Positions 43,372 through 48,587 of a stretch of 64,000 nt of DNA are shown here, one piece after another. The notes below the pieces were generated by a model that was not told the DNA's origin, did no database searches, and saw only the letters and a program-made list of their open reading frames with translations. Positions within the stretch are counted from its first letter, which is position 1. Every line of letters starts with the position of its first letter. Where the stretch lies: the NCBI GenBank assembly GCA_029202445.1, contig CP119321.1, positions 682,001 through 746,000 of the forward strand, written 5' to 3'. The position numbers were made by a program, and so were the translations under genes. This DNA comes from Candidatus Microbacterium phytovorans (lineage in GTDB: Bacteria > Actinomycetota > Actinomycetes > Actinomycetales > Microbacteriaceae).

Positions 43372-44094
43372 TCAGTCCGCACCCCCTGCGGCCTCACCGA
43401 GGCGATACATGCGAACGTGCCGGTGGCCATGCTTGAACGAACGGGTCGCGTTCGGCAGCGGCCGCAGATCGTCACGTTCCGTCGTCACGAACACGACGAC
43501 GGCGCCCGTGGGGAGCACCGCCCCAAGAGTCTCGAGAGCGGCCGCCGCCGGAGGTCCGGCGGAGGTCGCCGCCGACCACGAGGTCTGTGTGCCGTAGGGC
43601 AGGTCGCAGAGCGCCACATGGATGCCGTCGAGGTCGAGCCGTGCCAGTGAACCGGCATCCGTGACATCGGCCTCCACCGCGTCGGTGCGCAGTGCGGAGG
43701 AGCGCCCGGGAACATCGAGCAGCCGATCGATCGCGGCCAGGCGGTCGGCGTCGGCGCCGCGGGCGGTCAACTCGCGTCGCCGCTCCGCGAGCCCGGCGGG
43801 TGTCGCCAGTGCGAGGTTCTTCGCGGCGAGTGTGACGGCGGCGGGATCGACGTCGCTCGCCAGCACCCGCTGGACTCTCTCCGGTCGCAGCATCGCGACG
43901 GCGGTGGGGATGCCACCCGCGCCGCACATCGGATCCCACAGGCCGACGCGCTCGCGACCGGTCAGGAGACGCGCCCGCTCGAAGAGTTCGACGGCCAGGC
44001 GCGGCGGGAAACCCGGGAACCCGGGGGCCGAATGGATGACCCGGCCTCCTCCGGCATCCTCGTAGCTCTCGCCGTTCGCGTGATCGAACCTCAT
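43372..44094 (-). CDS. class I SAM-dependent methyltransferase (Trm11/Trm14-like)
   Basis: A 240-aa methyltransferase. The SAM site is WDPMCGAGGIPTAVAML (near residue 55), followed by LASDVDPAAVTLAAKNLALA, and the target-base motif is DLPYGTQTSW, of the (D/N)xPY type used for amino-group methylation of RNA bases; an rRNA or tRNA guanine-N2 or adenine-N6 target is plausible. There is no THUMP domain. The start ATG overlaps the stop of the AHSA1 gene (ATGA), so it is the last gene of the arsR operon. The upstream in-frame extension to 44610 lies antisense-free inside the AHSA1 gene and is rejected. Confidence 0.75.
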   Translation of the reverse strand: MRFDHANGESYEDAGGGRVIHSAPGFPGFPPRLAVELFERARLLTGRERVGLWDPMCGAGGIPTAVAMLRPERVQRVLASDVDPAAVTLAAKNLALATPAGLAERRRELTARGADADRLAAIDRLLDVPGRSSALRTDAVEADVTDAGSLARLDLDGIHVALCDLPYGTQTSWSAATSAGPPAAAALETLGAVLPTGAVVVFVTTERDDLRPLPNATRSFKHGHRHVRMYRLGEAAGGAD

Positions 44095-44993
44095 CGGGTG
44101 CCCTCCTCCCCGAGGCTGACGCGCAACGCCGCGAAGACGAACTCCCACCCCTGTCGATACGACTCGACAGGGCCGTCGTCCGTCCACGGACCCGTGTGCC
44201 GCAGAGTCAGGACGCACCCGGCGGCGGTCTCGCGGAGGTCGATGTCGCACGCTTCGTCGCGGCTCTCGCCGTCGGCGTCGCTCCACCGCCACGTGAACGC
44301 CAGGCGGTGCGGGGCCTCGACGGCGAGGTAGCGCCCCGCCACGGCGATGCCTGCCGCTCCCGCCGCGAACCGGTAGGCGCCACCCGGGCGGGCGTCGGCC
44401 GTGATCTCGACGTCGTCCCAGTGGTTCCACCACCAGGTGCGCAGCCTCTCGGGCCGTGTGAGGGAGGCCCACACGTCGGCCACCGGCGACGACAGCTCGA
44501 TCTCCAGGTGGAGCGGGCGCTGTGCGAGCAGGGCCCACGGTGCGGCAGCATCCGTGCCATTGTCCGCTCCCCCGTGGAGCTTGGCCAACGCGCGAAGGTG
44601 CGACTCCCACCCGCCGCCGTAGTCCGCGACGTGATCGGGCTCGCCGAGACGGTGCTCGAGGGTGAGAATCGTGCCGTCGCCGTCACGTCGGAGGTCGACG
44701 CGCACGCGGCTCGGGGCTTCGGCATCCCAGGTCCACCCCACGGCGAGGGTCTCCGCGGGAGCGCACTGCTCGATGCGCAGCGCAGCGGGGCCGTCGGGAT
44801 CATCCGCGAAACGGATGCGCACGAGGGCGGGGTCATCGGCATCCCGTTCGACGTCGCCGAGCCAGCGGGCGAGGCGGGAGCTGTCGGTGAGCGCCGACCA
44901 CACGTCGTCGGGAGTCGCGGCGTAGCGCCGCACGATCGTCACGATCGGCTCGTGCGACGAGCCTGTCAGGCCTCGAAGAAGCAGGTCACGCAT
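44091..44993 (-). CDS. tandem AHSA1/SRPBCC-domain protein
   Basis: A 300-aa protein with two START-like AHSA1 domains: residues about 15-140 (IVRRYAATPDDVWSALTDSS; WLGDVERDADDP) and about 160-295 (LEIELSSPVADVWASLTRPE; WNHWDDVEITADARPGG). Each resembles activator-of-Hsp90-ATPase homologues that bind hydrophobic ligands. It sits between arsR (8-bp overlap) and the methyltransferase. ArsR-AHSA1 pairs are common in bacteria, but the ligand and target are usually unknown. The start is ATG 44993, after residues of the ArsR tail. Confidence 0.82.
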   Translation of the reverse strand: MRDLLLRGLTGSSHEPIVTIVRRYAATPDDVWSALTDSSRLARWLGDVERDADDPALVRIRFADDPDGPAALRIEQCAPAETLAVGWTWDAEAPSRVRVDLRRDGDGTILTLEHRLGEPDHVADYGGGWESHLRALAKLHGGADNGTDAAAPWALLAQRPLHLEIELSSPVADVWASLTRPERLRTWWWNHWDDVEITADARPGGAYRFAAGAAGIAVAGRYLAVEAPHRLAFTWRWSDADGESRDEACDIDLRETAAGCVLTLRHTGPWTDDGPVESYRQGWEFVFAALRVSLGEEGTR

Positions 44994-45336
44994 GGTCCTC
45001 TCGCCTCTCTTGCTCGGAGTGTGCGATCCCGCGTCGCAGTTCGGTGTCGAGGGCGTCGAGCCGGTGCGTCCATCGAGCTCGTTGCTCGGCCACCCAGGCT
45101 GCGGCCTCGTCGAGCGCTTCGGGCCGCAGTGCGTACAGTCGCCGGGCGCCGTCTGCGCGTGCCTCGGCGACTCCCCCGTCGCGCAGCACACGCAACTGGT
45201 TCGAGACGGCGGGCTGTGAGATGCCGAACTCCGAGCCGATGGCTCGACTGATCTCACCCGAGGTGCGGTCGGCGTTGGCGAGGATCTCGACGATGCGCCG
45301 ACGCACCGGATCGGCGAGCAGATCGAAGGAGTTCAC
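44986..45336 (-). CDS. ArsR-family transcriptional regulator
   Basis: A 116-aa winged-HTH repressor: FDLLADPVRRRIVEILANAD and ISQPAVSNQLRVLRDGGVAE (recognition helix, about residues 39-58), then RRLYALRPEALDE. There are no Cys pairs of the SmtB/ArsR metal sites, so it is unlikely to sense metal. The start is GTG 45336. An inverted repeat (ATATCA-N8-TGATAT) lies 9 bp upstream, in the gap with the divergent GNAT gene, so it probably controls both genes. Confidence 0.87.
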   Translation of the reverse strand: MNSFDLLADPVRRRIVEILANADRTSGEISRAIGSEFGISQPAVSNQLRVLRDGGVAEARADGARRLYALRPEALDEAAAWVAEQRARWTHRLDALDTELRRGIAHSEQERREDHA

Positions 45337-45401: not shown

Positions 45402-46025
45402 ATGGCGCCCGCCCGCATCCACCTCGATCTGATCCCCCGCGTCGACACGACATCATGGACTCTTCGTGTCGACGGCGTCGATGTCGGCGTGCTGCGCGGA
45501 AGTGTGCGCAGCAGCGACGTCGAGCTGTTCGTCGAGGTGGACGAGTCGGCGCGGCGCCGCGGGATCGCACGTGCAGCGATCGGCCGCCTTCTCGGCTCCG
45601 CGCCGTGGGGCCACGACGTGCGCTACATCGCCGAGGTCGACGCGGGCGACGAGGCTGCTGCGTCTCTCGCGCGCCGGCTGGGGTTCACGCCCGAGGATGC
45701 CGGGGGTGCCGGCCACAAGTGGAGTCGCTCCGCCCCGCGCGCCCGGGCCGCCGCCGACGATATCGCCCGCTTCCTCGACCGCGACGGACGGATCGACCGC
45801 TACCCGCTGCGCAGCGCCGACCGGAAGGCTCTTCTGACGTGGGTCGCGGCGCGGGCCCTGCCGCACGGTGTGGTGCTCGATGAGGCCGCGGTGAACGCGC
45901 GGCTGGAGCCGTACGCCCCCGCGGGCGATGTCGCCGTGCTGCGGCGGTATCTGGTCGATCACGGACTCGTCGAACGCACGCGATCGGGCTCGGAGTATGT
46001 GAGGGTCGAGCGCGTCGCAGGTTAG
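45402..46025 (+). CDS. GNAT acetyltransferase fused to DUF2087
   Basis: A 207-aa protein. The N-terminal half is a GNAT domain: VELFVEVDESARRRGIARAA contains the Q/RxxGxG/A acetyl-CoA loop, followed by EVDAGDEAAASLARRLGF. The C-terminal part (about residues 118-205) is a DUF2087 domain with ARFLDRDGRIDRYPL, AAVNARLEPY and VLRRYLVDHGLVER. DUF2087 commonly occurs in ArsR-like regulators and is a nucleic-acid or ligand-binding candidate. It is divergent from the ArsR gene and converges on the sigma-factor gene with a 4-bp overlap of stop codons. Confidence 0.75.
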   Translation: MAPARIHLDLIPRVDTTSWTLRVDGVDVGVLRGSVRSSDVELFVEVDESARRRGIARAAIGRLLGSAPWGHDVRYIAEVDAGDEAAASLARRLGFTPEDAGGAGHKWSRSAPRARAAADDIARFLDRDGRIDRYPLRSADRKALLTWVAARALPHGVVLDEAAVNARLEPYAPAGDVAVLRRYLVDHGLVERTRSGSEYVRVERVAG

Positions 46026-47260
46026 TCCAGTGCGGCCGCCTTCTCCTCGAGCACTCGGCGCTGCGCGTCGTTGGCGGTCAGGGCTATGGCGTGCGCGAAC
46101 TCCTCCCGCGCCTCCGTGGCGCGCCCGAGCCGTGCCAGGAGTTCACCGCGCACGCTCGGCAGCAGCGGCGAGCCTCGGAGCTCTCCGCGCCGCGCCAAAT
46201 CGTCGACGATCCGTAGCGCGGTGGCGGGACCGGTCGCCATCGATACGGCGACGGCGCGGTTGAGTTCGACGATCGGGCTCGGCGCGATCCGTCCGAGCGC
46301 CTCGTAGAGCACGACGATCGTCTCCCAGTCGGTGTCGTCGACGTGCGATGCCACAGTGTGGCACTCGGCGATGGCCGCCTGCAGCGCATACGTGCCCCGT
46401 CCCCGACCGGATGCCAGGAGGTCTGCTCGCCGCAGGGCCGCTCGCCCGCGTGCGATCTGTCGCCGGTCCCACATCGTTCGGTCCTGATCGGCGAGCAGCA
46501 CCGGGCGCCCGGCGGCGTCCTCTCGGGAGGCGAACCGGGCGCGCTGGAACTCCATGAGAGCCACGAGCGCCACCGGCTCCGGCTCTCGAGGGACCAGCCC
46601 GCACAGCACCCGTCCGAGGCGCAGGGCCTCGTCGGCGAGCTCCGGGCGCATCCACCGTTCCCCTGCCGTCGCCGCGTAGCCCTCGGTGAAGATCAGATAC
46701 ACCACGCCGAGCACGCCGTCCAGCCGCGCCCGCCACTCCGACGGTTCCGGCGTCTCGAAGGCGACACCTGCCGCCGACAGGGTCTTCTTCGCTCGCGTGA
46801 TCCGTGCCTGCACGGTGGCGACAGGAACCAGCAGCATTCGGGCGATCTCGGCCGAGGTGAGACCGCCGACGACGCGGAGGGTGAGGGCGACCTGCGACTC
46901 CCGTGACAGCGCCGGATGGCACGCCGTGAAGACGAGCCTCAACAGGTCGTCGTCGATCGGCTCCCACGAGTCTTCCGCCGACTCCGACAGCTCGTGCGCG
47001 ATGAGCCGATAGCGATCGTCGCGGCGCTCGCGCCGACGCCACGCGTCGATGGCACGGCGTTTGGCCGTCGCCGTGAGCCAGGCGCCCGCGTTCGCGGGTA
47101 TCCCGGCCTCCGGCCAGGACGTCAGAGCCTCCGCGAGCGCTTCCTGGGCGACGTCCTCCGCCTGGCCGAGGTCGCCCGTCATCTTCGCGAGCGTCGCGAC
47201 GATGCGGGGGCCCTCGATCCGCCAGACGGCCTCGACGGCTCGCGTGGCCTCGAGCGGCAT
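46022..47260 (-). CDS. ECF42-type RNA polymerase sigma factor
   Basis: A 412-aa extracytoplasmic-function sigma factor of the long ECF42 type. Region 2 spans about residues 10-80 (DLGQAEDVAQEALAEALTSW), region 4 about 110-170 (LTSAEIARMLLVPVATVQAR), and the remaining 230 residues form the helical DUF6596/TPR-like C-terminus (CGLVPREPEPVALVALMEF; IAPSPIVELNRAVAVSMATG). ECF42 factors pair with YCII (DGPF) proteins, and the YCII gene overlaps its start by the ATGA arrangement. No anti-sigma factor is adjacent, consistent with this group. Confidence 0.88.
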   Translation of the reverse strand: MPLEATRAVEAVWRIEGPRIVATLAKMTGDLGQAEDVAQEALAEALTSWPEAGIPANAGAWLTATAKRRAIDAWRRRERRDDRYRLIAHELSESAEDSWEPIDDDLLRLVFTACHPALSRESQVALTLRVVGGLTSAEIARMLLVPVATVQARITRAKKTLSAAGVAFETPEPSEWRARLDGVLGVVYLIFTEGYAATAGERWMRPELADEALRLGRVLCGLVPREPEPVALVALMEFQRARFASREDAAGRPVLLADQDRTMWDRRQIARGRAALRRADLLASGRGRGTYALQAAIAECHTVASHVDDTDWETIVVLYEALGRIAPSPIVELNRAVAVSMATGPATALRIVDDLARRGELRGSPLLPSVRGELLARLGRATEAREEFAHAIALTANDAQRRVLEEKAAALD

Positions 47261-47682
47261 CAGACCGTGCCGAGCTGCTCGCGCCAGCCGGCCTCCTTCT
47301 GCACGAACTCGTTGTCAGCGAAGTCGGCGAAGTCGGACTCGTCGGTGATCCGCCGGACCTCCAGCGTGTTCCCGGGGCCGAGAGGGCAGCGCTTCGCCCA
47401 CTCGATCGCCTCCTCCGCCGTCGCCGTGTCGAGGATCCAGAAGCCGTTGAAGAGCTCGTGCACTTCCCCGTACGGGCCGTCCGACACGAGCGGCGGCTCA
47501 TCCGCCGAGAACGTCACCAGGTAACCGGCCTCGGGCGCCAGCCCGTCTCCGCCGGCGAGCACTCCCGCCTTGATGAGCGACTCGTTGTAGGCGCCCATCG
47601 CGTTGATGACCGCCTCGAAGTCGAGTTCCTTCGACGCCTCCAGCGCTTCGGCCGTGGTCCGCATGATCAGCATGTGCTTCAT
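47260..47682 (-). CDS. YCII-domain (DGPF) protein
   Basis: A 140-aa protein of the YCII family; the conserved DGP motif appears as VSDGPYGEVHELFNGFWILD. These proteins accompany ECF42 sigma factors and are their likely targets or modulators; the biochemical role is unknown. MKHMLIMRTT at 47682 is the start, preceded by AAGGAG. The stop overlaps the ATG of the sigma gene (47260), so the pair is translated together. Confidence 0.88.
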   Translation of the reverse strand: MKHMLIMRTTAEALEASKELDFEAVINAMGAYNESLIKAGVLAGGDGLAPEAGYLVTFSADEPPLVSDGPYGEVHELFNGFWILDTATAEEAIEWAKRCPLGPGNTLEVRRITDESDFADFADNEFVQKEAGWREQLGTV

Positions 47683-47731
47683 CTGTCCGTCTCCTTCATC
47701 CGGATGCCCGCGGCATCCTCTCACTATGACG

Positions 47732-47757
47732 TCGAACGAGAATCGACGAAATCGACA
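47732..47757 (-). promoter_or_regulatory. ECF42-type promoter (TGTCGA-N17-CGA) before YCII
   Basis: On the minus strand TGTCGA (47752-47757) is followed after 17 bases by CGAC (47731-47734). The -35 TGTCGA and -10 CGA/TC pair matches the reported ECF42 promoter pattern, which argues for autoregulation of the YCII-sigma operon. The start would be near 47725, about 43 bases before the YCII ATG. Confidence 0.55.
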
Positions 47758-47800: not shown

Positions 47801-47850
47801 AGGTCAGCGCAGGTCAGCGCAGGTCAGCGCAGATCAGCGCACGTCAGCGC
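47801..47850. repeat. five tandem 10-bp repeats (AGGTCAGCGC)
   Basis: Three exact copies of AGGTCAGCGC followed by AGATCAGCGC and ACGTCAGCGC, with an exact 10-bp period. The array spans the stop codon of the SUMF1-like gene and the gap to the YCII promoter. Confidence 0.9.
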
Positions 47851-48587
47851 AGCGGCGTCCACCCCGTAGGCAGCGGCCCGTCGGCATCCGCCCGCTCTCG
47901 GTCCGCGGCTGCCGACCAACCCTGGGCCGCGGCCGGGGAGTCGAAGCCGCCGCGCGCCAACCGCACGCCGACGTCCTCGTGATGCATACGGGGGGCTCCG
48001 CCGCGGCGAGTGGACGCGCGCACGCTCCAGGCGTCGTCGGCGAACCCCCCGCCGCGAAAGACGCGATAATCGCCGTACCGGGCGGGGTCGAGCAGGTCCC
48101 AGCACCATTCCCACACGTTGCCGAGCGTGTCGAAGAGACCATGGAGGTTGGGGTGCTTGCCGCCGACGTCCTGAGGGCTCGTCACGCCGTCTGCCGCGGT
48201 CCACGCGACGTCGGCGAGCGGCCCGTAGTGCGGTCCCGTCGAGCCGGCCCGGCATGCGAACTCCCACTCCGCCTCCGTCGGCAGGCGGAATCCGTCGCTA
48301 TCGACGTGCCACGTGACATCCTCGCCGTCGAATGTGTACGCGGGGTCCAGGCCCTCCCACTCGGATGCCGCATTGCACAGCCGTACGGCACGCAACCAGG
48401 AGATGTCCGCTGCGGGGCGCCGCGGATGACGCGCGGTCTCACCGAGGAGTTCTGCCCGCATCTCTTCGGTGAGCGGGAACACACCGATCTCGAAGGGCTC
48501 GAGGTCGACCGCGCGTCGCATCTTCCGACGCGCGTCGTGCAGTTCGACCCGCCCGCCGGCGATCGCCCTCATCTCGATGTCGGTCAC
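47844..48587 (-). CDS. SUMF1/FGE-fold protein, probably not a formylglycine-generating enzyme
   Basis: A 247-aa protein with the FGE fold: ISWLRAVRLCNAASEWEGL, GFRLPTEAEWEFACRAGSTG, GNVWEWCWDLLD and RVFRGGGFADDAWSVRASTR. The two active-site cysteines expected in the R-G-G-S-x-C region are absent (GGGFADDAW), so it should not make formylglycine; no sulfatase is adjacent. It may bind carbohydrate or act like EgtB-type relatives, but the DinB domain is also missing. GTG 48587 is six bases after TAGAGT. Its 3' end reads into the 10-bp tandem repeat. Confidence 0.78.
   Translation of the reverse strand: MTDIEMRAIAGGRVELHDARRKMRRAVDLEPFEIGVFPLTEEMRAELLGETARHPRRPAADISWLRAVRLCNAASEWEGLDPAYTFDGEDVTWHVDSDGFRLPTEAEWEFACRAGSTGPHYGPLADVAWTAADGVTSPQDVGGKHPNLHGLFDTLGNVWEWCWDLLDPARYGDYRVFRGGGFADDAWSVRASTRRGGAPRMHHEDVGVRLARGGFDSPAAAQGWSAAADRERADADGPLPTGWTPLR

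Follow-up and report, generated by a model that had tools for sequence, protein, structure and literature searches.

A conserved ECF42-type promoter motif and a covarying leader hairpin precede a YCII-sigma factor operon in Candidatus Microbacterium phytovorans

The window analysed here, a 64,000-nucleotide stretch of DNA, belongs to a complete 3.03-Mb genome and encodes a YCII-domain protein directly upstream of a sigma factor. The genes and the elements preceding them are as follows.

47757-47752, minus strand: -35 element TGTCGA, identified from sequence; the next base is T
47731..47738, minus strand: -10 region CGTTCGAC with the core CGAC at 47734-47731, identified from sequence and ortholog conservation
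47725 or 47724, minus strand: predicted transcription start (A47725 or G47724), 6-7 bases 3' of CGAC
47702..47718, minus strand: hairpin GGATGCC-GCG-GGCATCC, 7-bp stem and 3-nt loop, -11.6 kcal/mol, z -1.64
47691..47696, minus strand: Shine-Dalgarno sequence AAGGAG, identified from sequence, 8 nt before the ATG and outside the hairpin
47260..47682, minus strand: YCII-domain protein, 140 aa, with a DGPY motif (Pfam PF03795, 2e-13)
46022..47260, minus strand: ECF42-type sigma factor, 412 aa (Pfam Sigma70_r2, Sigma70_r4_2 and DUF6596, the last at 1.5e-35)

The YCII start codon is backed by an ortholog alignment (ATGAAGCACATGCTG). Because the YCII stop overlaps the ATG of the sigma gene (TGATG), the two genes very likely form one operon. 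The sigma factor comprises regions 2 and 4 without region 3 (PF04542 at residues 17-80, PF08281 at residues 111-161) and a C-terminal extension of ~200 residues in which DUF6596 occupies positions 179-279; no Pfam TPR hit was found in this extension at E 0.001. Based on its Pfam domain architecture and its YCII neighbour, we classify the protein as ECF42-type. Its nearest named relative, from Microbacterium sp. T2.11-28, shares 84% identity, and a single-protein scan of genome contigs with the sigma factor returned few true ECF42 relatives. No anti-sigma gene was found among the neighbours examined, which encode FGE-sulfatase, MFS transporter, GNAT/DUF2087, ArsR and AHSA1 proteins. Near the operon, at 44091-45336, an ArsR-type regulator is followed by an overlapping AHSA1-domain protein.

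Upstream of the operon, the minus strand reads TGTCGA TTTCGTCGATTCTCGTT CGAC GTCATA GTGAGAGGATGCCGCGGGCATCCGGATGAAGGAGACGGACAG ATG, ending in the YCII start codon. The original prediction of TGTCGA and CGAC separated by 17 bases is borne out at 47757-47731, with the spacer spanning 47751-47735. The interval first assigned to the motif, 47732-47757, omits the last C of CGAC and has to be extended to 47731. Likewise, the distance of 43 bases then given to the YCII start suits the predicted transcription start at 47725/47724 and not the motif, as 48 bases lie between the end of the -10 element and the ATG (47682-47680). The site carries TGTCGR and CG[A/T]C at a spacing of exactly 17, the pattern that defines an ECF42-type promoter. 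As had been proposed, it resembles known ECF42 promoters: its geometry equals that of Sinorhizobium meliloti promoters with mapped starts (PMC6180224), and it is therefore another example of a known promoter type whose geometry has already been described for ECF42. The predicted transcription start is based on a conserved RTGAGAGG sequence and on the spacing of the mapped S. meliloti starts. Two repeats were observed in this region. Inside the promoter spacer (47736-47756), a unit of 9-10 bases that reads ACGAGAATCG on the plus strand occurs in 2.2 copies, a feature not shared by orthologs. The other, the 10-base tandem repeat AGGTCAGCGC (47801-47852; 5.2 copies, 90% match), is located around the point where the FGE-sulfatase gene ends, immediately upstream of the promoter.

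Lack of conservation in orthologous loci had been named as a refutation of the proposed promoter. The YCII gene was sought in 198 same-genus genomes and the upstream DNA was read for 110 orthologs, 104 of which carry exact TGTCGA-N17-CG[AT]C (102 at first reading, plus L049 and L059, reread as L400 and L399). Exceptions include L123, with a spacing of 18, and L158 and L181, whose motif finishes with CGAT. The 102 aligned orthologs were chosen by motif, so that the motif bases themselves are a selection criterion. In this alignment the T after TGTCGA, which was not among the criteria, is invariant; CGTT before CGAC is conserved at 95-96% per column, and the mid-spacer is variable. At the family level, the N17 motif is found in 21/30 DUF6596 loci, and at the phylum level in 13/29 and 17/40 loci, denominators that also count loci truncated at contig ends and perhaps some that lack a YCII gene. 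Other spacings occur in 0-4 loci each in the family and phylum sets, except for N20 with 8 in the family set, a count that comes partly from a conserved CGACGTC context. Many loci in these conservation counts share descent.

The orthologs also share RTGAGAGG at the probable mRNA start, followed by a short hairpin. In our operon the hairpin lies close to where the mRNA is predicted to begin, and the Shine-Dalgarno sequence is unpaired in the fold. The mean folding z is -1.48 in 48 non-redundant leaders, versus -0.12 for the DNA upstream of the promoter. When the arms were swapped between leaders, own 3' arms paired better by a mean of 2.9 kcal/mol (z -9.0; 0/5000 permutations), and no such effect was seen in two adjacent control windows. 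When stems of a fixed 6-5-6 geometry were placed by anchoring on RTGAGA alone, pairing extended to 71% of positions, versus 46-57% when slid. Several genomes from other families show the hairpin as well. When 39 leaders were aligned with MAFFT, RNAalifold returned no structure, since stems and loops differ in length and the alignment did not bring the arms into register; the hairpin claim therefore rests on the arm-swap test. Rfam yielded no family match for the leader hairpin and one sub-threshold chance match elsewhere.

Single non-Watson-Crick pairs inside the stems comprise 13 G-U and 3 A-C, which suggests an RNA rather than a DNA element. Sense and antisense folding energies differ only slightly (p 0.018), and a similar tendency, though not significant, is seen in a control. 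Several roles for the leader were considered and rejected. A DNA operator palindrome does not fit, as conservation applies to the pairing and not to the sequence of the stem; an intrinsic terminator would be followed by a U run, which is missing here; and masking of the ribosome-binding site is at odds with the free Shine-Dalgarno sequence. A leaderless frame starting from GTG 47724 was also discarded, the frame to the YCII start being unconserved (29, 35 and 14 of 78 loci in the three frames). We tentatively suggest, as the most likely role, that the hairpin protects the 5' end of the mRNA. Alternatively, the hairpin might be a regulatory element alongside the promoter, with a protein or small RNA binding the leader and controlling the operon after transcription starts. 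The covarying arms, the conserved RTGAGAGG, the predominance of G-U over A-C pairs expected for RNA and the persistence of the hairpin in two loci that have lost the sigma gene (L397 and L398; sequences L058 and L077) would fit such control. However, the widely varying stem and loop sequences argue against a sequence-specific stem binder, and the position of the Shine-Dalgarno sequence, the missing terminator and the weak strand difference in folding energy likewise count against this reading, which we regard as unlikely.

The link between the promoter and the adjacent sigma gene was assessed in a sample of 149 genomes, of which 83 contain this YCII ortholog, 79 with a DUF6596 sigma and 4 without. 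The exact motif is present in 78 of the 79 genomes that have the sigma. In G053, G119 and G092 (loci L395, L397 and L398) the motif is broken, and no trace of a sigma was found behind the YCII gene. In G062, motif and YCII gene are intact and the sigma gene is reduced to fragments, as expected of a recent loss:

792-1270 of locus L396, reverse strand of the locus: ECF42 sigma fragments

The association between motif and sigma presence is significant (Fisher p 1.7e-4), with few losses and a p value that ignores kinship. Motif decay upon sigma loss is the strongest evidence that the sigma factor maintains the motif.

The genome contains only three YCII genes and two DUF6596 sigmas. The sequence TGTCGA-N13-CGTTCG occurs just three times in the genome, at 362183, 729733 and 1791055, and each copy lies ~40-45 bases upstream of one of the three YCII genes. 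As a background, a hand tally gave 18 copies in 32 same-genus genomes without a DUF6596 sigma, or ~0.6 per genome. The second ECF42 locus has the -10 sequence CGTTCGCT; TTCGCT is found in 30/30 orthologs read and TGTCGA in 29/30. In its operon (L032 1432-1857; C1:362183-362608) the promoter reads TGTCGA-N17-CGCT, and the leader, GTGGGGATGAAACGGTTCC, is highly conserved; TTCC in this leader could pair with GGGGA as a candidate pairing. The third YCII gene, C1:1791122, is an orphan without its own sigma (L033 1434-1836; C1:1791055-1791457). It lies downstream of a 445-aa frame resembling malate synthase (named by eye only), and its leader has a conserved block, CACGTAACGTC, in place of the hairpin. 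The orphan carries CGTTCGAC, the type of the sigma at 46022..47260, and its close orthologs have CGTTCGAC too, or a CGAC form with a spacing of 18. Given this CGTTCGAC and the distinct, conserved -10 of the second ECF42 locus, the orphan is probably read by the sigma at 46022..47260 and is the best further target.

Since the genome has two ECF42 factors, cross-recognition is possible: the promoter might be read mainly by the other ECF42 (C1:363k) or by both, the two YCII-sigma operons cross-activating each other. In line with this, both promoters share TGTCGA-N13-CGTTCG. The -10 of the second locus nevertheless differs from CGTTCGAC, many same-genus genomes without the second locus keep this promoter (a close match to that locus is found in only 37/149), and the promoter decays when the adjacent sigma is lost. 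We regard this reading as very unlikely.

The original prediction had also offered TGTCGA-N16/17-CGA as a simple way to search for the regulon, a pattern that proved too loose. TGTCGA-N16-18-CGA matches nine times in the window, against 5.84 expected, and at least nine matches were obtained in 14/100 shuffles; genome-wide, even TGTCGA-N16/17-CGAC has 55 matches. Being at chance level, the loose pattern is therefore no proof by itself and unable to find the regulon. The idea of finding the regulon by its promoter motif holds once the pattern is tightened to N17 and CGTTCG. These counts are what a chance match in GC-rich DNA would give, but the exact spacing of 17, the CGTTCGAC context, the place before the YCII start and the conservation in orthologs, where the spacing stays fixed though the mid-spacer varies, are far beyond chance and already refute that reading.

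Taken together, the evidence makes it highly probable that this site serves the YCII-sigma operon as its promoter and is read by the operon's own ECF42-type sigma in positive autoregulation, as originally proposed. The ECF42 architecture, the adjacent YCII gene, the conserved motif and its decay with sigma loss all support this. RNA polymerase with the sigma encoded by the second gene of the operon would read the promoter, region 4 contacting TGTCGA and region 2 contacting CGAC 17 bases away, and transcription would begin at about 47725. The resulting mRNA would open with RTGAGAGG and the small hairpin, which may guard its 5' end and would leave the ribosome-binding site free. The same sigma probably drives the orphan YCII gene at C1:1791122 too, whereas the second ECF42 would rely on a different -10 variant, CGTTCGCT, in front of the YCII-sigma operon to which it belongs. 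By analogy, one observation speaks against autoregulation: overexpressed S. meliloti RpoE10, an ECF42 factor, did not raise its own YCII-rpoE10 operon (PMC6180224).

The sequence TGTCGA-N13-CGTTCG names a small predicted regulon, here consisting entirely of YCII genes, which makes YCII proteins the likely main output. ECF42 factors are widespread and are not known to have an anti-sigma factor or a defined signal. The -10 difference between the two ECF42 paralogs provides a testable rule for promoter choice, and the covarying hairpin in the leader suggests an additional level of control that would escape promoter studies. In a literature search, which did not include the key ECF42 papers Liu 2018 and Wu 2019, we came across no account of the leader hairpin, nor of paralogs that differ by CGAC versus CGCT. 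With somewhat less than even confidence, we propose that actinobacterial ECF42-YCII operons carry an undescribed structured RNA leader, composed of RTGAGAGG and a covarying hairpin at the mRNA 5' end, which ties the promoter to control of mRNA stability or of early elongation, and that paralogous ECF42 factors within one cell are insulated by having CGCT in place of CGAC as the -10 core.

Some stem-loops at the 5' end stabilise mRNAs, as in ompA of E. coli. The predicted leader is reminiscent of ompA in having a short stem-loop a few bases from the (here predicted) 5' end and a free ribosome-binding site. Organism and gene are different, and the conserved RTGAGAGG leader is absent from the ompA example.

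For the ECF42 factors of Streptomyces venezuelae, a different organism, Liu et al. 2018 reportedly published a motif of TGTCGA and CGA/TC, similar to the site described here. The literature already covers ECF42 factors together with the neighbouring YCII genes and the long extension at the C terminus, S. venezuelae having Sven_0747, Sven_4377 and Sven_7131 (PMC8999054). Like the sigma factor described here, these proteins combine sigma domains 2 and 4 with a C-terminal extension of ~200 residues, have a YCII (DGPF) gene as neighbour and lack an anti-sigma factor.

The S. meliloti ECF42 promoters with mapped starts (SMc01149, SMb20475 and SMc01151) read TGTCGG-N17-CGTC (PMC6180224). They differ in having TGTCGG and CGTC where our site has TGTCGA and CGAC, and in the case of SMc01151 motif and mapped start overlapped. 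The RpoE10 promoters share the same elements at the same spacing of 17, and in both organisms the YCII gene precedes the sigma gene.
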